Assembly (NCBI GenBank): GCA_902805805.1
Contig: CADCUE010000010.1
Span: forward strand, 1-18,930
DNA from: an uncultured Frankineae bacterium
GTDB taxonomy: Bacteria; Actinomycetota; Actinomycetes; Mycobacteriales; SCTD01
Length of the DNA: 18,930 bases
Direction of reading: 5' to 3'
Position numbers and translations under genes: made by a program. Positions within the stretch are counted from its first letter, which is position 1. Every line of letters begins with the position of its first letter. Shown here piece by piece: positions 2,717 through 13,913 of this stretch. The notes under the pieces are model-generated. The model did no database searches and was not told the DNA's origin. It saw nothing but the letters and a program-made list of their open reading frames with translations.

Positions 2717-4930
2717 ATGTTCGCCAGGCTAGGCGCCACCGTCCACGACTCCCGCCGCGCCGTCCTCGTGCTCGCGGCGCTGGTCGTCGTGGTCGCGGCC
2801 GTGATCGGCACCAGCGTCTTCGGCCGGCTCGTCGACGGCGGTTTCGAGGACCCCGGCAGCGAGTCGCAGCGCGCGATCGCCGCAGCCGAGCAGGCGTTCG
2901 GACGTACGGACGGGGACGTGCTCGCGGTCTACCGCAGCGACGCGCTCGCGGTGACCGACCCCGCGTTCGCGTCCTCCGTGACGGCGGTGCTGGACGACCT
3001 GCCGGCGCAGGACGTCGCCGCGGTGACGTCGTACTGGTCGACGGGGTCGCCGTCGCTCGTCTCCGCAGACGGCCGGTCGACGCTCGTCGTCCTCCAGCTG
3101 GCCGGTGCCACCGAGCTCGAGCGGGCCGAGGCGTACGACCGGGTCAGGGACGCGCTCGTCCCGTCCGGTGACGTCCAGGTCCTGCGCGGCGGCGCCGTCC
3201 CGACCGGTGCCGACATCGGCGAGCAGGTGGAGGCCGACATCGTGCGGGCCGAGACGCTGTCCTTCCCGGTGCTGCTGGCCCTGCTCGTCGTCGTCTTCGG
3301 CGGGCTGGTCGCCGCCGGCCTGCCGCTGCTCATCGGGACCGTGGCGGTGCTGGGCGCGTTCCTGTCGCTGCGGCTGCTCACCGAGCTCACCGACGTGTCG
3401 GTGTTCGCGATCAACATCGTGACGATGCTCGGCCTCGGGCTCGCCATCGACTACGCGCTGTTCGTCGTGAGCCGGTTCCGCGAGGAGCTCGCCGAGCGGC
3501 CGCGCTCGCACGACCCGGTGCGCGAGCGGGCGGCGCTGCGCGCGGCGGTCGTCGCCACGATGGACACCGCCGGCCGCACCGTCGCGGTGTCCGGCCTGGT
3601 GGTGGCCGTGGCGCTGACGTCGCTGCTGTTCTTCCCCCAGCTGTTCCTGCGGTCGATGGGCCTCGGCGGGATCTCGGCCGTGCTCGTCGCCATGGGGGCG
3701 GCCCTGACGCTCCTGCCGGCGCTGCTCGCCGTCCTCGGCCGCCGGGTCGACGCCCTGCGCCTGCCGCTGCGGCGGCGGGAGCGCAGCGACGAGTCGGGCG
3801 GCTGGGCGCGCCTGGCCCGCACGGTCATGCGCCGTCCGGTGCCGGTCGCGCTCGGGACCGTCGCGCTGCTGGTGTCCCTGGGGCTGCCGGCGCTGGGCGT
3901 GAGCTTCGGCGGGGTCGACGCGCGGGTGCTGCCGGAGGGCACCGAGAGCCGCCTTGCCGCCGAGGCGCTCGCGGACGGGTTCCCGCAGGCGACGTCGTCA
4001 CCGGTCGAGCTCGTCGTCGAGGGCGCCGATCCGGCCGGCCTGACCGGCTACGTCGACGCGCTGGCCGCACTGCCCGGCGCGACCAGCGCCCGGGTCGTGC
4101 AGGAGTCGTCCGGCACCGCCCTGGTCGAGGTCGGCTTCCGCGGGGCGGCGCTGGGCGGGCCCGCCGACGCGCTGGTGGACGCGGTGCGCGCGGTGCCGCT
4201 CCCGGCCGGCGCGCAGGTGCTCGTCGGCGGCGAGACCGCCGGCCTGCAGGACCTGCTCGACAGCCTGACCGCGACGGCTCCGGTGGCCGTCGGGGTGGTC
4301 GTCGCGGCCACCCTCGTGCTGCTGTTCCTCGCGTTCGGCTCGGTCGTCCTGCCGGTCAAGGCGGTCGTCATGAACGTCCTGTCGCTGGGCGCCACCCTCG
4401 GCGTGCTCGTCTGGGGCTTCCAGGAGGGCGGCCTGGCCGGGCTGCTCGGCTTCACCGAGACGGGCACCGTCGAGGCCACGCAGCTCGTCCTCATCCTGGC
4501 GATCGCCTTCGGGCTCTCCATGGACTACGAGGTGTTCCTGCTGTCGCGGGTGCGCGAGGAGTGGGACCGCACGGGCGACAACGCCCGCGCCGTCGCGGCC
4601 GGGCTGCAGCGCAGCGGCCGGATCATCACCAGCGCGGCCGTGCTGCTGCTGGTGGTGTTCCTCGCCTTCACCACGAGCGGCATCACGTTCATCCAGATGA
4701 TCGGCGTGGGGGTCGCGGCGGCCATCGTCGTCGACGCCACCGTCGTGCGCGCCCTGCTCGTCCCCGCCACGATGCGCCTGCTGGGCGGCGCCAACTGGTG
4801 GCTGCCCCGTCCGCTGCAGGCCGTGCACGCTCGCTTCGGGCTGCGCGAGAGCGGGCCGGTCGAGCCGCTGCCCGTGCCGTCGATGCGGCCGGCCGAGCAG
4901 CCGCGCGACGTCCCTGCCCTGCGGGGCTAG
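2717..4930 (+). CDS. MmpL-family RND transporter
   Basis: A 737-residue proton-driven RND exporter of the MmpL/hydrophobe type, in the cytoplasmic membrane. The layout is the classic internal duplication. TM1 lies at about residues 15-35, then an extracytoplasmic domain to about 180. A TM cluster spans about 181-340 and contains GLGLAIDYALFVVSRFREE with the Asp245-Tyr246 pair. A second TM at 373-395 and a second external domain to about 515 follow, then a second TM cluster spans about 520-690 with IAFGLSMDYEVFLLSRVREEW and the Asp603-Tyr604 pair. These two DY pairs are the proton-relay residues of the family. The C-terminal tail is short. ATG at 2717 follows GAGGAGG. The divergent TetR gene is its likely regulator. 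The substrate could be a lipid, a siderophore or a drug; sequence alone does not say. The stop is 5 bases from the convergent pepA stop. Confidence 0.93.
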   Translation: MFARLGATVHDSRRAVLVLAALVVVVAAVIGTSVFGRLVDGGFEDPGSESQRAIAAAEQAFGRTDGDVLAVYRSDALAVTDPAFASSVTAVLDDLPAQDVAAVTSYWSTGSPSLVSADGRSTLVVLQLAGATELERAEAYDRVRDALVPSGDVQVLRGGAVPTGADIGEQVEADIVRAETLSFPVLLALLVVVFGGLVAAGLPLLIGTVAVLGAFLSLRLLTELTDVSVFAINIVTMLGLGLAIDYALFVVSRFREELAERPRSHDPVRERAALRAAVVATMDTAGRTVAVSGLVVAVALTSLLFFPQLFLRSMGLGGISAVLVAMGAALTLLPALLAVLGRRVDALRLPLRRRERSDESGGWARLARTVMRRPVPVALGTVALLVSLGLPALGVSFGGVDARVLPEGTESRLAAEALADGFPQATSSPVELVVEGADPAGLTGYVDALAALPGATSARVVQESSGTALVEVGFRGAALGGPADALVDAVRAVPLPAGAQVLVGGETAGLQDLLDSLTATAPVAVGVVVAATLVLLFLAFGSVVLPVKAVVMNVLSLGATLGVLVWGFQEGGLAGLLGFTETGTVEATQLVLILAIAFGLSMDYEVFLLSRVREEWDRTGDNARAVAAGLQRSGRIITSAAVLLLVVFLAFTTSGITFIQMIGVGVAAAIVVDATVVRALLVPATMRLLGGANWWLPRPLQAVHARFGLRESGPVEPLPVPSMRPAEQPRDVPALRG

Positions 4931-6721: not shown

Positions 6722-6805
6722 GTCCGAGCGGACGTCGGAGCGGACGTCCGTCCAGGCGTCCGGGCGGGCGTCCGCACAGGCGTCCGGACGGGGGTCCAGA
6801 CTGAC
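6722..6805. repeat. Seven tandem copies of a degenerate 12-bp GTCC repeat
   Basis: Seven consecutive 12-base units each begin with GTCC or GTCG: starts at 6722, 6734, 6746, 6758, 6770, 6782 and 6794. Typical units are GTCCGGGCGGGC and GTCCGCACAGGC. The array fills most of the 233-base space between the divergent DUF3117 gene and the enoyl-CoA hydratase gene. It includes the perfect 10-bp palindrome CGTCCGGACG at 6781-6790. Nothing else is recognisable in this intergenic space apart from start-codon signals. Confidence 0.75.
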
Positions 6806-8194: not shown

Positions 8195-8292
8195 TGCGGC
8201 TGCTCGGCGGCTGCGGCTGCTCGGCGGCTCCGGCTGGTCGACGACTACGGCTGCTCGGTGCGGCTGCTCGGCGGCTACGGCTGCTCGGCGGC
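8195..8292. repeat. Tandem 17-bp repeat (TRCGGCTGCTCGGCGGC) overlapping the end of the DivIVA-like gene
   Basis: Units begin at 8195, 8212, 8229 (diverged), 8246 (13 bases, shortened), 8259 and 8276. The units at 8195, 8212 and 8259 are identical, and the last differs by one base. The array fills the space upstream of the SRPBCC gene. Its last unit supplies the TAG stop and the last five codons of the DivIVA-like gene on the minus strand, so the gene end may have been formed or shifted by repeat growth. Confidence 0.75.
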
Positions 8293-8580
8293 CGCGTCGC
8301 CGTCGAGGGCGCCGGACTGCGCGAGGCGCCGGTCGCGCTCGGCGAGCTCGGCGGCCAGGCGGTCGAGCACGGCGTCGACCTCGCTCATGCGGTAGCCGCG
8401 CGGAGCCATCGAGAAGCGCAGGCCCTCGAGGTCCTGCGCCCGCAGCGGTCCGTCGGGCAGGGCGAGGTCCGGCAGGTCCTGCGGGGCGTCCGCCATGACA
8501 GGTCCTTCGCGGGTGGCCACCGCGGCGGCGACGAACAGCACGAGCACGACACCCACCAGCGCAAGGACCGTCACGACCAC
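8275..8580 (-). CDS. Small membrane protein with DivIVA-type domain
   Basis: A 101-residue protein. Residues 1-22 (VVVTVLALVGVVLVLFVAAAVA) form one transmembrane helix. After a proline-rich linker, LEGLRFSMAPRGYRMSEVDAVLDRLAAELAERDRRL (51-86) is the DivIVA N-terminal motif with its RGY(R/D)xxEVDxxLDRL core leading into a coiled coil. Similar one-helix DivIVA-domain proteins occur in many actinobacteria and may mark curved or growing membrane, but this one is uncharacterised. The frame continues upstream to 9000 over the photolyase-like gene, so a local start is needed. GTG at 8580 keeps the membrane helix, while ATG at 8496 (AAGGA about 7 bases upstream) would give a soluble 73-residue form. 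The C-terminus lies in the 17-bp repeat. Confidence 0.78.
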   Translation of the reverse strand: MVVTVLALVGVVLVLFVAAAVATREGPVMADAPQDLPDLALPDGPLRAQDLEGLRFSMAPRGYRMSEVDAVLDRLAAELAERDRRLAQSGALDGDAAAEQP

Positions 8581-8620: not shown

Positions 8621-9841
8621 GTGACCCCTGCCCCGGACACCCGCTCCCCCGCCGCCGACCCGCGACCGGACGCCGTCGACCTCGACGTGCCGCTCGCCCC
8701 GGACCTGCACGCGCCGCACACCGCCACCGGCGAACAGGTCCCGATCCGGGACCTGTCGCAGCTCGCGCCGCCGGCGCGCCCGGCCCGCCGGTGGACTCCC
8801 AAGCGGGTCGTCATCACCCCCGCGGCGCTGGACCACCCGCACGGTCGCCGCATCGTGGAGCGCGTCGAGGCGCTGGGCCTGCCGGTCGAGCGGCTCAGGG
8901 CCAACCGCCTGACGGGGGTGCGCGGCGACGACGAGCGGCAGACGTACGCCCTGGCCAAGGCGACGATGGCGATCGTCGTGAGCCCGCCGTCCCGGCGCAA
9001 GCTGCAGCCGATCTCCCCGAGCGCCGACTGGCGGTTCGACCTCGCGGAGGGCTGCCCGGCGCACTGCCAGTACTGCTACCTGGCCGGCTCGCTGTCGGGG
9101 CCTCCCGTGACGCGCGTCTACGCCGACGTGGACGAGATCCTGGAGGGCCTCGCGCCGTACGTCGGCCAGGGCACGATCACCAGCCGCAGCGACGCCCGGC
9201 GCGGCGAGGGGACGACCTTCGAGGCGTCCTGCTACACCGACCCGCTCGCCCTCGAGCACCTCACCGGGTCGTGGGAGCGCGCGGTGCGCTTCTTCGGCGA
9301 GTGGGACGCCGACGTGCAGCTGCGCTGGACGACGAAGTACGCCGACGTCGACCGCTTCGTGGGGCTGCCGCACGCCGGGCGCACGCGGGTCCGCCTGTCG
9401 GTCAACGCCCTGCCCGTCACCACGCGCATGGAGGGCGGTACGGCCCGGCTCGAGGAGCGCGTGGCCGCGCTCGGGACGCTCGCCCGCGCCGGCTACCCCG
9501 TGGGGCTGACGATCGCGCCGATCATGCCGCTGCCCGAGTGGCGGCGGGAGTACGGGCACCTGCTCGACCTCGTCGTCGACGCGGTGCGCGGCGTCCCGGA
9601 CCTCGACCTGACCGCCGAGCTGATCACGCACCGCTTCACCCCGGGCAGCAAGGAGGTGCTGCTCGGCTGGTACCCGCGCACCCGGCTCGAGATGGACGAG
9701 GCCTCGCGCACGCAGAAGCGCGGCAAGTTCGGCGGGGTGAAGTACGTCTACCCCCAGTCGGTCATGCGCGAGCTGCGCGGCTGGTTCGAGGCGTCGATCG
9801 CCGAGCGGCTCCCGTCCTGCCGGGTCCTGTACTGGACGTGA
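8621..9841 (+). CDS. Spore photoproduct lyase-like radical SAM protein
   Basis: A 406-residue radical SAM enzyme related to SplB. The iron-sulphur cluster motif is CPAHCQYC (145-152), the CxxxCxxC pattern, followed by YLAGSLSG. The upstream IVVSPPSRRKLQPISPSADWRFDLAEG and downstream FEASCYTDPLALEHLTGSWERA segments match this family. Cys204 in the latter is a plausible counterpart of the hydrogen-donor cysteine of B. subtilis SplB, subject to alignment. The C-terminal part ends CRVLYWT. True SplB repairs thymine-dimer spore photoproduct. Homologues in non-sporulating actinobacteria are of unproven function, perhaps repair of UV or desiccation damage. The GTG start has no strong Shine-Dalgarno. 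The gene is divergent from the DivIVA-like gene by 40 bases. Downstream lies the repeat array. Confidence 0.88.
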   Translation: MTPAPDTRSPAADPRPDAVDLDVPLAPDLHAPHTATGEQVPIRDLSQLAPPARPARRWTPKRVVITPAALDHPHGRRIVERVEALGLPVERLRANRLTGVRGDDERQTYALAKATMAIVVSPPSRRKLQPISPSADWRFDLAEGCPAHCQYCYLAGSLSGPPVTRVYADVDEILEGLAPYVGQGTITSRSDARRGEGTTFEASCYTDPLALEHLTGSWERAVRFFGEWDADVQLRWTTKYADVDRFVGLPHAGRTRVRLSVNALPVTTRMEGGTARLEERVAALGTLARAGYPVGLTIAPIMPLPEWRREYGHLLDLVVDAVRGVPDLDLTAELITHRFTPGSKEVLLGWYPRTRLEMDEASRTQKRGKFGGVKYVYPQSVMRELRGWFEASIAERLPSCRVLYWT

Positions 9842-9934: not shown

Positions 9935-9943
9935 TCGGTCGGG

Positions 9944-10463
9944 ATGTGGCGATCACGCCCGCTCAGCACCCCGCCAAGATCGCCACATCCGCGGGCCGCC
10001 CCGGCCGGCCGGCCCCTCGACAGCGACGCCGCGCCCGGGAAGTGGCGATCACGCCCGCTCAGCACCCCGCCAAGACCGCCACATCCGCGGGCCGCCCCGG
10101 CCGGCCGGCCCTCGACAGCAGCGCCACGCCCAAGAAGTGGCGATCACGCCCGCTCAACACCCCGCCAAGATCACCACATCCGCGGGCCGCCCCGGCCGGC
10201 CGGCCCTCGACAGCAGCGCCACGCCCGGGAAGTGGCGATCACGCCCGCTCAGCACCCCGCCAAGATCACCACATCCGCGGGCCGCCCTCAGCCGGCCGGC
10301 CCTCGACAGCAGCGCCGCGCCCGGGAAGTGGCGATCACGCCCGCTCAGCACCCCGCCAAGATCACCACATCCGCGGGTCGCCCCGGCCGGCCGGCCCTCG
10401 ACAGCAGCGCCACGCCCGGGAAGTGGCGATCACGCCCGCTCAGCACCGCGCCAAGATCACCAC
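9944..10463. repeat. Tandem array of six 95/96-bp units, each with a hairpin core
   Basis: GTGGCGATC recurs at 9946, 10042, 10137, 10232, 10328 and 10423 (spacings 96, 95, 95, 96, 95). Each unit holds a 41-base core: a 9-base left arm, a 23-base loop beginning ACGCCCGCTC, and a complementary right arm (GATCGCCAC, GACCGCCAC or GATCACCAC). Cores are joined by 54/55-base linkers rich in CCGGCCGGCC. In the first copy the arms extend to a perfect 11-bp inverted repeat (9944-9954 with 9978-9988). Loop length is 23 in all six copies. The array lies between two convergent genes, so it may act as a terminator or boundary or give a structured 3' RNA. Reading frames cross it, but the 95-bp period rotates the frame between copies, so it is not coding. 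Confidence 0.92.
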
Positions 10464-10520
10464 ATCCGCGGGTCGCCATCCGCGGGGTCGCCACATCCGC
10501 GGGTCGCCGCCCGCGGGTCC
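10464..10520. repeat. Four short tandem copies of ATCCGCGGGTCGCC
   Basis: Units start at 10464, 10478, 10495 and 10509, with small indels and a degraded last copy. The unit is the first part of the linker in the last 95-bp units, so this looks like secondary expansion of the array edge. It ends 10 bases before the dehydrogenase stop codon. Confidence 0.65.
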
Positions 10521-10530
10521 CCCCGACGGG

Positions 10531-11439
10531 TCAGTAGCCCCGCTCGACGTCCACCAGGCCGGTCAGCGGCTCCCCCGCGGCGGACCGGCGGACGTTGTCC
10601 GTGATGCGGCGGGCCAGCAGCGGCTGCGCCGTCTGCCAGGGGTTGGCCGTGTGCGGGGTGATCAGGCAGTTCGGCAGGCTCCACAGCGGGTGGCCGTCCG
10701 GCAGCGGCTCGGGATCGGTCACGTCCAGCGCCGCGCCCCCGATCTGCCCGTCGCGCAGGGCCGTGACGAGGGCGTCGGTGTCGACGTGCGGGCCACGCGC
10801 GACGTTGACCAGCCAGGCCTCGTCCGACATCGCTGCGAGCTGCGCCGCCCCGATGACCCCGGTCGTCTCCGGGGTGAGCGCCAGGGCCAGCACGACGATC
10901 AGCGCGTCCCCGAGCACCGCGTCGAGCTCGTCCAGCGGCACCGTGCGGGCCGCGCCCGGCACCGGCTCGCCGGACCGGCGTACGACGGTGACCGGGCAGC
11001 GGAACGGCGCCAGCAGCCCGAGCAGCGAGGTGGTGATGCCCCCGGCGCCGAGGACCACCACCGGAGCGTCGTAGAGGGTGGCCGCTGACTGCTCGCCCCA
11101 CGACTGCGCCCGCGCCCGCTCGGGGAGCGAGCGCAGACCGGCGAGGGCGAGGGCGAGCGCGTGCTCGGCGACGGGGTCGGCGTAGACCCCCTTGGCGCAG
11201 GCCCAGGTCAGCGACGGGTCGAGGACGTCGACGAAGCGCTCGACGCCCGCGAACGGCAGCTGGACCCAGCGCACGGACGGCGCCTGCTGCAGCGCCTCCC
11301 GCAGCCCGTCGGGGTCGTCAGGGGCCATCCAGACCAGGCCGTCGGGCTCCTCGGAGAGCGCGGCGACGCGACCGCCGCCCTCCACGACCGCGGCGACGAC
11401 GTGATCCGCCTGCGACGGCTCGACCGCGATGCTCGTCAT
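10531..11439 (-). CDS. D-isomer-specific 2-hydroxyacid dehydrogenase
   Basis: A 302-residue NAD(P)-dependent oxidoreductase that would interconvert a 2-oxoacid and a D-2-hydroxyacid, such as glyoxylate or hydroxypyruvate. The nucleotide-binding segment is APVVVLGAGGIT; the last glycine of the usual GxGxxG is replaced by Thr. The catalytic trio appears as Arg in VNVARGPHVD, Glu in DVTDPEPLP and His in LITPHTANP. The N-terminal 100 residues, with GVERFVDVLDPSLTWACAKGVYADPVAEHALAL, form the split substrate domain. ATG at 11439 gives a normal start at MTSIAV. The frame also opens at 11472, but that would run close to the divergent quinone reductase. No Shine-Dalgarno precedes it, so the mRNA may be leaderless. 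The stop lies beside the repeat array. Confidence 0.9.
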   Translation of the reverse strand: MTSIAVEPSQADHVVAAVVEGGGRVAALSEEPDGLVWMAPDDPDGLREALQQAPSVRWVQLPFAGVERFVDVLDPSLTWACAKGVYADPVAEHALALALAGLRSLPERARAQSWGEQSAATLYDAPVVVLGAGGITTSLLGLLAPFRCPVTVVRRSGEPVPGAARTVPLDELDAVLGDALIVVLALALTPETTGVIGAAQLAAMSDEAWLVNVARGPHVDTDALVTALRDGQIGGAALDVTDPEPLPDGHPLWSLPNCLITPHTANPWQTAQPLLARRITDNVRRSAAGEPLTGLVDVERGY

Positions 11440-11489: not shown

Positions 11490-12464
11490 GTGCGGGCAGT
11501 CGTCGTGAGCAGGACCGGTGGTCCTGAGGTGCTCGAGGTGCAGGAGCGACCGGACCCCGTCCCGGGGCCGTCCGACCTGCTCGTCGACGTCGAGGCCGCG
11601 GGCGTCAACTTCATCGACGTCTACCAGCGCGAGGGCCGCTACCCCCTGGAGCTGCCCTTCGTCGCCGGCAGCGAGGGCGCCGGTGTCGTCCGCGCCGTCG
11701 GCGACTCCGTGCAGGACCTGCGCCCGGGTGACCGCGTCGTCTGGGCGATGGTCAACGGGACCGGCTACAACAGCGCGACGGTGATCCCGGCGGCCAGGGC
11801 GGTGAAGATCCCGGACGGCGTCTCCAGCGAGCAGGCCGCGGCCGTCCTGCTGCAGGGGATGACGGCCCACTACCTGTGCGAGAGCACCTACCCGGTGGCG
11901 TCCGGCGACGAGGTGCTGGTGCACGCGGCGGCCGGCGGCACCGGGCTGCTGCTCACGCAGATGGTGGCCCGCAAGGGCGGACGGGTGATCGCGACCGTGT
12001 CCACAGCCGAGAAGGAGGAGCTCGCCCGGGCCGCCGGCGCCGCCGAAGTGATCCGCTACGACCGCGAGGACGTCGCCGAGCAGGTGGGCCGGCTCACCGA
12101 GGGACGCGGCGTCGCGGTGGTCTACGACGGCGTGGGGAAGTCGACGTTCGACGCCAGCCTGGCCTGCCTGCGCCGGCGCGGCGTGCTGGTGCTGTTCGGC
12201 GCGTCCAGCGGCCCGGTGCCGCCGGTCGACCCGATCCGGCTGATGGGCGGCTCGACGTTCCTCACCCGGCCGACGCTCGCCCACTACGTCGCGGAGCGGG
12301 AGGAGCTGGTGGCGCGGGCGACGGACGTGCTGAGCTGGGTCGAGGACGGCACGCTGGACGTGCGGATCGGCCAGCGCTACAGCCTCGACGAGGCGGCGCA
12401 GGCCCACGAGGACCTCGCCGGACGGCGTACGACCGGCAAGTCGCTGCTGCTCCCGTCCGGTTAG
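11490..12464 (+). CDS. NADPH:quinone oxidoreductase, zinc-independent MDR family
   Basis: A 324-residue medium-chain dehydrogenase/reductase of the zeta-crystallin type that would reduce quinones with NADPH in the cytosol. The GroES-like N-terminal domain contains EAAGVNFIDVYQREGRYPLELPFVAGSEGAGVV (about 35-67), the quinone reductase signature. The Rossmann part has VLVHAAAGGTGLLLTQMV (142-159) with the AAAGGxG NADPH loop, and DGVGKSTFDASLACLRRRGVLVLFGASSGP later. No zinc-ligand cysteines of alcohol dehydrogenases are present. GTG at 11490 has GGAGGAGG five bases upstream. The gene is divergent from the hydroxyacid dehydrogenase with 50 bases between starts. Its stop overlaps the stop of the convergent LOG gene by four bases. 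Confidence 0.92.
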   Translation: MRAVVVSRTGGPEVLEVQERPDPVPGPSDLLVDVEAAGVNFIDVYQREGRYPLELPFVAGSEGAGVVRAVGDSVQDLRPGDRVVWAMVNGTGYNSATVIPAARAVKIPDGVSSEQAAAVLLQGMTAHYLCESTYPVASGDEVLVHAAAGGTGLLLTQMVARKGGRVIATVSTAEKEELARAAGAAEVIRYDREDVAEQVGRLTEGRGVAVVYDGVGKSTFDASLACLRRRGVLVLFGASSGPVPPVDPIRLMGGSTFLTRPTLAHYVAEREELVARATDVLSWVEDGTLDVRIGQRYSLDEAAQAHEDLAGRRTTGKSLLLPSG

Positions 12465-13057
12465 GGCTCGGCCTCCAGGACCTCCTCGGCCAGCGGCGAG
12501 AACTCGACCGGCGCCTGCAGCCCGGCCTCGACGAGGTCCAGCGCCTGCTCCACCGAGGTCGCCCACTGCAGCGCGCCGACGGCCGGTGCCCGGACGAAGC
12601 CGCGCTCGGCCAGGAGCTCGACCTGCGCGCGCAGCGGGACGTACAGGCCGTCGACGTCGAGCGCGACCACGGGCTTGACGTGCATGCCGAGCGAGCGGGC
12701 GACCCAGACCTCGAACAGCTCCTCGAGCGTGCCGAGCCCGCCGGGCAGCGCGAGGAAGGCGTCGGCGCGCTCGTCCATGAGCCCCTTGCGCGTGCGCATG
12801 TCGTCGACGACGAGCAGCTCGTCGGCCGCCCGGTCACCGACCTCCTCGTCGAGCAGGGTCCGCGGGATGACGCCGACCGTACGCGCGCCGCCGGCCCGCG
12901 CGGCACGCGCGACGGCGCCCATCATCGACAGCTCACCGCCGCCGGACACCAGCGTGTGGCCGCGTCGGGCCAGCTCCGCGCCGACGTCGGCGGCGAGGTC
13001 GACGTACGACGGGTCGATGCGGGGGCTGGACGCGCAGTAGACGCAGACCGCCGCCAT
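12461..13057 (-). CDS. LOG/TIGR00730 family protein (nucleoside monophosphate phosphoribohydrolase)
   Basis: A 198-residue Rossmann protein. SGGGELSMMGAVARAA (38-53) binds the phosphate, and ALPGGLGTLEELFE (103-116) is the PGGxGTxxE motif carrying the catalytic glutamate. The Arg-Lys of DMRTRKGLMDE (86-96) is also conserved. Family members hydrolyse N6-substituted adenosine 5'-monophosphate (cytokinin riboside phosphates) or other nucleotides to base plus ribose 5-phosphate; the bacterial substrate is usually unproven. ATG at 13057 gives the usual start MAAVCVYCAS. The frame opens further up at 13129, but that part overlaps the preceding gene. It lies 13 bases after the stop of a second LOG gene, so the pair probably forms an operon with coupled translation. 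It may now carry the LOG activity alone if the upstream copy is dead. Confidence 0.9.
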   Translation of the reverse strand: MAAVCVYCASSPRIDPSYVDLAADVGAELARRGHTLVSGGGELSMMGAVARAARAGGARTVGVIPRTLLDEEVGDRAADELLVVDDMRTRKGLMDERADAFLALPGGLGTLEELFEVWVARSLGMHVKPVVALDVDGLYVPLRAQVELLAERGFVRAPAVGALQWATSVEQALDLVEAGLQAPVEFSPLAEEVLEAEP

Positions 13058-13070
13058 CAGGCGCCCGCGC

Positions 13071-13913
13071 TCATCCCTCGTCGCCGCCGATGTGCTCGGC
13101 TCCCGTGGCGACGGGAGGCTTGTCGTCACGCTCCTCGTACGCCGCGTCGATGTGCTGCACCGCCTCGGCGACGTCGTCGGTCACCAGGAACAGGTCCAGG
13201 TCGGCCACGGCGATCAGCCCGCGCTCGGCGAGGGTGCCCTTGAGCCAGTCGAGCAGCGGCGACCAGAACTCGCGGCCCATGAGGATCACCGGGAACTGGT
13301 TGACCTTGCGCGTCTGCACCAGGGTCAGCGCCTCGAACAGCTCGTCCATGGTGCCGAAGCCGCCCGGGCAGATCACGAACGCCTGGGCGTACTTGACGAA
13401 CATCGTCTTGCGGGCGAAGAAGTAGCGGAACTCGATGCCGAGGTCGACCCACTCGTTCAGGCTCTGCTCGAACGGCAGCTCGATGCCGAGGCCGACCGAC
13501 AGGCCGCCCGCCTCGCTCGCGCCGCGGTTGGCCGCCTCCATGATCCCGGGACCGCCACCGGTGATGACGGCCCAGCCGGCGTCGGCGAGCGCCCCGCCGA
13601 GCTCCTGCGCCATGGCGTAGTCCGGGTGCTCCGGCGGCGTCCGGGCGCTGCCGAACACGCTGACCGCCCGGGGCAGCTCGGCCAGCAGGCCGAAGCCCTA
13701 GACGAACTCGGTCTGGATGCGGAGCACCCGCCACGGATCGGAGTGCACCCAGTCCGAGGGGCCTCGGGAGTCGAGCAGGCGCTGGTCGGTCGTCGTCTGC
13801 TGCACCTGACCCCGGCGCAGGATGACCGGGCCGCGCTGCTTCTGCGGGGTGTGCGCCCCGTCCGCGGACGCGGTGGAGGCGCTCAGGCGCTCGGGATCGA
13901 TGGAGGCGGGCAC
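13071..13913 (-). pseudogene. LOG/TIGR00730 family gene interrupted by an in-frame amber codon
   Basis: Read as one frame from GTG 13913 to the stop at 13071, this gives a 280-codon protein typical of actinobacterial TIGR00730 proteins. It has an N-terminal extension with QVQQTTTDQRLLDSRGPSDW and SDPWRVLRIQTEFV, then VFGSARTPPEHP, AVITGGGPGIMEAANRG, FRYFFARKTMFVKYAQAF and the catalytic ICPGGFGTMDELFE. Codon 72 is TAG (13698-13700). In homologues as remembered, EFV-E-GFG is continuous, so one base change (GAG to TAG) explains the break. The frame is identical on both sides and conservation does not drop across it. Either a recent nonsense mutation or a base-calling error fits. GTG at 13658 could restart a 195-residue product holding all the active-site motifs, though no good Shine-Dalgarno precedes it. 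A paralogue follows immediately. Confidence 0.85.

Follow-up and report, generated by a model that had tools for sequence, protein, structure and literature searches.

What is a sixfold repeat doing between two convergent genes of an uncultured Frankineae bacterium, and what kind of sequence is repeated there? In the stretch of DNA analysed, 18,930 nucleotides of one contig (hereafter the window), a 41-base core occurs six times between 9946 and 10463, at start-to-start distances of 96, 95, 95, 96 and 95, inside a convergent gap of 689 bases. Each unit of the repeat consists of one element and a linker of 44/45 bp. The motif GTGGCGATC occurs eight times in the window, where 0.34 occurrences were expected, and none of 200 shuffles reached eight. 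The first-pass annotation had described a six-unit 95/96-bp array with complementary arms around a loop of constant length. The array and its spacing are real and the loop is 23 bases long in all six copies, but the arms are fully complementary in copy 1 only, those of the other five carrying one mismatch each (Table 1). No Rfam family was detected in the window at gathering scores, nor any tRNA or tmRNA. Further short tandem repeats were found in the window by TRF at 6722-6801 (12/24-bp units) and 8195-8296 (17-bp unit, 6.2 copies), and a Lysine_decarbox domain (PF03641) is present in two adjacent minus-strand genes at 12461-13057 and 13071-13658.

Table 1. Coordinates in the window of the element copies, the array and the flanking genes. 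Bit scores are from the covariance model.
Feature	Position	Strand	Details
Element copy 1	9944..9988	+	11-base arms ATGTGGCGATC/GATCGCCACAT, loop 23; 73.2 bits
Element copy 2, core	10042..10082	+	3' arm GACCGCCAC, one mismatch; 67.3 bits
Element copy 3, core	10137..10177	+	3' arm GATCACCAC, one mismatch; 62.2 bits
Element copy 4, core	10232..10272	+	3' arm GATCACCAC; 66.1 bits
Element copy 5, core	10328..10368	+	3' arm GATCACCAC; 66.1 bits
Element copy 6, core	10423..10463	+	3' arm GATCACCAC; 67.1 bits
Tandem array, element plus near-identical GC-rich linker, unit 95/96 bp	9940..10477	.	95-bp period (TRF)
Degenerate tail, 14-16-base repeats from right-arm end plus linker start	10460..10532	.	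TRF rows 10460-10519 and 10466-10532, and sequence
Left flanking gene, spore photoproduct lyase family (PF20903)	8621..9841	+	
Right flanking gene, D-2-hydroxyacid dehydrogenase family (PF02826)	10531..11439	-	Start as chosen by the purpose-written gene caller; longest ORF reaches 11472

Relatives of the locus were searched with the left flanking protein, and the best 80 loci were compared with the window. The closest of these 80, L001 of the uncultured Frankineae bacterium AVDCRST_MAG07, shows 78-85% DNA identity to the window in five blocks covering most of it, and both flanking genes are kept. The two genes lie 105 bases apart in L001 with no array between them. This gap was not alignable to that of the window, and the comparison of the two gave no filled/empty pair with sharp ends or a target duplication. 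When compared by blastn (E 1e-3) with the best 80 loci, the array matched nothing but the window itself.

Copies elsewhere were recovered by three kinds of search. A 64-base query matched G002 (Frankiaceae MAG CAN_BIN20) and G001 (the genome of L001). The arm pattern GTGGCGATCN{10,35}GATCGCCAC, run over 200 genomes of the order, matched 34, of which five (G019, G131, G002, G007 and G001) were kept as carriers by eye on loop length and sequence and 29 were set aside; the accepted places numbered 55 in G019, 5 in G002, 4 in G131 and 1 each in G007 and G001. A covariance-model search of relatives, as suggested in the first-pass annotation, did recover further core copies: the model, built from an alignment of 28 copies, gave 117 matches over both strands of G019, equal to at least 59 places, and 23 copies in the other four carriers, which belong to the same family (G002 10, G001 7, G131 5, G007 1). 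With the six of the window, these make 88 sites in 55 clusters. Eight of 24 family genomes matched the model at E <= 0.01, three of them weakly (G004, G078 and G045; best E 0.007, 9e-5 and 4e-4), and these three were left out of the counts. Larger samples were run under stricter filters, with which weak copies can be missed: the model matched 5 of 397 genomes of the order at E <= 1e-6, the five carriers only, and 1 of 394 of the class, while the exact pattern matched 1 of 396 of the phylum, the single genome being G019 in both cases. The 25-base core pattern was found in no viral contig, and a distant blastn search of plasmids gave no match. The lowest site of G019 scored 43.9 bits and the next unrelated match 17.5 bits (318,554 bases), and copies of middling score were rare near the known ones. 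Some arrays of G019 lie at or near contig ends (L177:64-209, L185:47-174 and 3278-3413; contigs C31 and C27); copy numbers may be underestimated, since assemblies may break in such arrays. Two other palindromic sequences with loops unlike those of the element were seen: one identical 38-base GTGGCGATC...GATCGCCAC sequence at five places in G118, possibly another repeat, and two adjacent GTGGCGATC palindromes 48 bp apart at G190:C1:2521816-2521908.

From the aligned copies, we read the unit as a palindrome of about 48 bp, made of two inverted half-sites of about 21 bp that would lie some three helical turns apart. The consensus of the 28 aligned copies begins with GGAT, has the arms GGATGTGGCGATC and GATCGCCACATCC, and contains neither a GTAG nor a CGTC tag. 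The loop measures 22-24 bases in 86 of the 88 sites (24 in 49, 23 in 32, 22 in 5, and 20 and 25 once each). Among 27 G019 representatives (the first copy of each array, loop 24), pairwise identity is 99.6% over the 9+9 inner arm bases and 54% over the middle 18 loop bases. The arm value is inflated because the model was made largely from copies found with exact arms; the step from 43.9 to 17.5 bits and the dearth of middling copies near known ones speak against this. By our reading of the column counts, conservation runs symmetrically into the loop, so that the half-site is roughly GGATGTGGCGATCAYGCNCGC. The exact half-site GATGTGGCGATC was found 86 times in G019, 84 of them within listed palindromes, the remaining two being a remnant beside an array and a site in an open coding frame.

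Most of the arrays (22 of 25) come from one draft genome, G019. Distances between the centres of neighbouring copies cluster at 75, 85.5 and 95.5 bp: 24 of 28 fall at 74-76, 84-86 or 94-97, and the four misfits are 61, 102, 123 and 124. Linker lengths lie near 23, 34 and 44 bases. Outside the main mode the evidence for a period is only moderate (p 0.009 to 0.022), and with the period left free the scan was highest at 9.7 bp, not 10.5. Neighbouring copies fit better head to tail in 30 of 33 pairs, with 2 ties and 1 reversed, and this sole reversed pair (L184) becomes head to tail by eye after a one-base shift. Linkers are unrelated between different arrays; in some array pairs (L175, L191, L174, L186 and L179) the flanks or linkers are partly common to both. 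A neutral local minisatellite and nothing else, the deflating outcome named in the first-pass annotation, would suit the near-identity of the six window units and their absence from L001. For the element this reading is refuted by the dispersal of the same palindrome in five other genomes with unrelated linkers, and as an account of the whole it is hardly credible; for the sixfold amplification, which the nearest relative does not have, neutral expansion is possible.

The clusters lie at particular places among the genes, which were called with a purpose-written caller trained on these loci. Fifty-two of the 55 clusters are not inside a gene, two are inside one and one overlaps a gene. The 52 comprise 20 in convergent gaps, 21 in tandem gaps, 2 in divergent gaps and 9 at a locus edge, one edge cluster (L185) overlapping a gene end by about 10 bases. 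Compared with 146 element-free gaps of at least 60 bp from the same loci (13 convergent, 79 tandem, 54 divergent; lengths unmatched), the clusters are over-represented in convergent gaps (p 1.7e-7) and under-represented in divergent gaps (p 1.6e-5). G019 taken alone has 12 convergent, 15 tandem and 0 divergent. In tandem gaps, 16 of the 21 clusters are closer to the upstream stop than to the downstream start (p 0.027), at a median of 46 bp from the stop, and their strand relative to the gene shows no preference (9 same, 10 opposite, 2 ties).

Inverted repeats placed so soon after stops would be expected of a hairpin RNA, acting as a bidirectional terminator or as a stabiliser of mRNA 3' ends, and several copies do fold well (z -4 to -7). 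This explanation is nevertheless given little weight. The arms are fixed in sequence and show no covariation beyond that of shuffles, and none was detected at the loop edges; at the second loop position (C/T versus G/A), Watson-Crick pairs are fewer than predicted (0.27 vs 0.38) and G-U pairs more frequent (0.25 vs 0.16). A loop of 22-24 bases, imperfect stems in five of the six window copies and the even division between strands likewise count against it. Between 9700 and 10700, no promoter- or terminator-like site was found, and a GC stem followed by a T run is absent. The strong bidirectional terminator suggested by the first-pass annotation found no backing in the scan of this site for T-run terminators, and its structured repeat RNA is disfavoured by the absence of covariation and of a strand preference; neither an intrinsic terminator nor a structured RNA is supported. 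A protein on duplex DNA fits better than an RNA hairpin, because the arms are fixed without covariation, neither strand is preferred, the half-sites lie about three turns apart and neighbouring copies about seven, eight or nine. The element is probably a protein-binding site, a putative function read from these features of its sequence.

Copies inside genes bear on whether such sites stay in place or are inserted. In G019, the cobB gene (L135) contains one copy in frame, between the CbiA and GATase_3 domains. Two fixed residues are separated by 25 residues in G019, by 9 in 10 of 14 orthologues and by 11, 11, 12 and 13 in the remaining four. The G019 stretch is longer than the commonest length by a net 16 residues (48 bp) and than the remaining four by 12-14 residues; the exact ends of the insert are unreadable against the divergent orthologues. 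This alignment holds 14 of 17 non-self loci, the partial matches L221-L223 having been dropped, and L224 is absent from the DNA view. As judged from the alignment, the element occurs in cobB as a discrete insert within the gene. Three further copies lie in frame in a histidine-rich stretch of a NicO-family transporter of G019 (L186:5084-5331) at distances of 84 and 123 bases; since these distances are divisible by three, the palindrome has become part of the protein. In L192, a pair of copies overlaps a gene end. Among 99 flanking proteins, one junction is common to G002 (L144) and G019 (L174). Both genomes have copies there, G019 five, and the neighbour gene, for which the match spans 37% of the length, has opposite orientations in the two. 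The junction (L174:6006-7436 and L144:1158-1209) adjoins a glutamate racemase-like (murI-like) gene, named by eye. Pfam gave no match for the C27 repeats or for the neighbour protein in L174.

Sites that serve a regulator or a nucleoid protein as operators, held by selection and not mobile, would account for conserved arms with a free loop, half-sites in dyad, spacing in register and the absence of a strand preference, and the murI-like junction with copies in both G002 and G019 agrees with them. Such sites are at odds with the placement at gene ends and the near absence from divergent gaps, where promoters lie, with the copies inside cobB and the NicO gene, with a single shared junction among 99 flanking proteins, and with a copy number that ranges from 1 to at least 59 in the five carriers. 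We regard immobile operators as rather unlikely. The dispersal, the insert in cobB and the occurrence of head-to-tail copies whose flanks are not shared agree with an insertable element.

A search for the mover of such an element gave no candidate of the usual kinds. Y1_Tnp (PF01797) was found in none of 11 draft genomes, the five carriers included, while the control was positive in 5 of 14 known genomes. A composite transposon was considered on contig C27 of G019, where copies lie near both ends, and was rejected, the four intervening genes reading as ordinary. With a REP/REPIN family mobilised by a RAYT (Y1) transposase the element would have its habits in common: REPs are likewise extragenic, occur in unidirectional and convergent gaps and in arrays, and occasionally form in-frame inserts (PMC3733652). 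The missing Y1_Tnp counts against this origin, although a RAYT may have been lost or escape from drafts, as do the lack of a GTAG or CGTC tag and the head-to-tail arrays; we consider it improbable. The alternative of a MITE, a deletion derivative of an IS whose transposase, encoded elsewhere in the genome, would recognise the 13-base ends, draws on the terminal inverted repeats, the non-coding nature of the element and the discrete cobB insert. No IS with these exact ends was found in G019 by a search for exact half-sites, which outside palindromes gave just the remnant and the coding-frame site described above. The near-constant size is also unlike such derivatives and the spacing is left unexplained, which makes a MITE unlikely.

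The element was also compared with described repeats. In REPINs, a less conserved spacer separates two conserved 16-mers in inverted orientation; REPINs form hairpins and tandem clusters and are non-autonomous (PMC3116915, PMC2817692). The present element resembles REPs and REPINs in being a short, extragenic, dispersed palindrome that occurs in clusters (PMC3116915, PMC2817692). It differs in having no RAYT among the 11 drafts and no GTAG-type head, in its direct-orientation arrays and in spacing classes about one helical turn apart; its half-sites lie 32-33 bp apart from start to start, compared with 71 bp in the GI REPINs of SBW25. BIMEs are likewise regularly spaced extragenic palindromes and are reported to bind proteins (PMC2817692), but their palindromes alternate in orientation, whereas the pairs here are mostly head to tail. 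CGTC-tagged repeats, including RPE-4 and RPE-6 of Rickettsia, are palindromes that are mostly intergenic and sometimes inside genes (PMC3733652), as in cobB and NicO here. Their stems of 8-9 bp and loops of 4-5 bases contrast with 13 and 22-24 in the element, which has no CGTC tag, and head-to-tail dimers are negligible among them (PMC3733652) and prevalent here. The table of PMC3733652 gives no transposase association for these families, so its absence alone would not make the element new. REPs have also been reported within genes and in gaps between unidirectional or convergent ones, and for some dimer spacers the length is kept and the sequence is not (PMC3116915, PMC3733652, PMC2817692); such positions, a missing transposase and length-kept spacers, being already described, are therefore not new traits here. 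MITEs are similar in being non-coding with terminal inverted repeats and differ from this element of about 48 bp, for which no parent with these exact ends was found in G019. No description of the element was found in the available text of the open-licence literature, where the motif strings returned only cancer, mouse or insect work by title and abstract; the actinobacterial genomes listed in a passage of PMC12306157 are of other genera. We file the element as new, REP-like but not REP, and set apart from described kinds by the absence of a RAYT, a tag and alternating orientation. The dispersed REP/BIME-like palindrome, amplified locally, that the first-pass annotation had proposed is borne out in its dispersal, its mostly extragenic position at gene ends, its discrete insert and its sixfold unit, but not in an assignment to the REP/RAYT class, which the missing tag, the missing Y1 domain and the head-to-tail order oppose.

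The reading that we favour, with somewhat better than even confidence, is a REP-like, insertable, non-coding palindromic element of about 48 bp in one Frankiales-type family, putatively mobile and protein-bound, and multiplied sixfold in the window by tandem duplication. Some enzyme that recognises the half-sites would insert the copies, and each of them would be, or would once have been, bound in duplex form by a dimeric protein. A second copy may have been set down, or retained, so that it faces the same side of the helix as its predecessor. The six units of the window would have come from one element and its 44/45-bp linker through ordinary tandem duplication. A bolder form, which we advance tentatively and hold to be possible though doubtful, is a minimal mobile two-half-site protein-binding unit of about 48 bp, moved by an enzyme other than a RAYT or the transposase of an IS that has the same ends. 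A bound copy would then direct the next one into the same flank, in the same orientation and seven, eight or nine turns off, giving register without duplication of the flank.

REP-like palindromes are usually explained by RAYT, and here the same habits appear in a clade in which no RAYT was detected. The spacing classes hint that a protein on duplex DNA, not an RNA hairpin, shapes or maintains the arrays. For the host, the position of the array suggests as the likeliest effect a protein-bound roadblock or boundary in the 3' region common to two convergent genes, which would be tolerated and possibly useful. The element thereby bears on an old question, the role of extragenic palindromes at gene ends.
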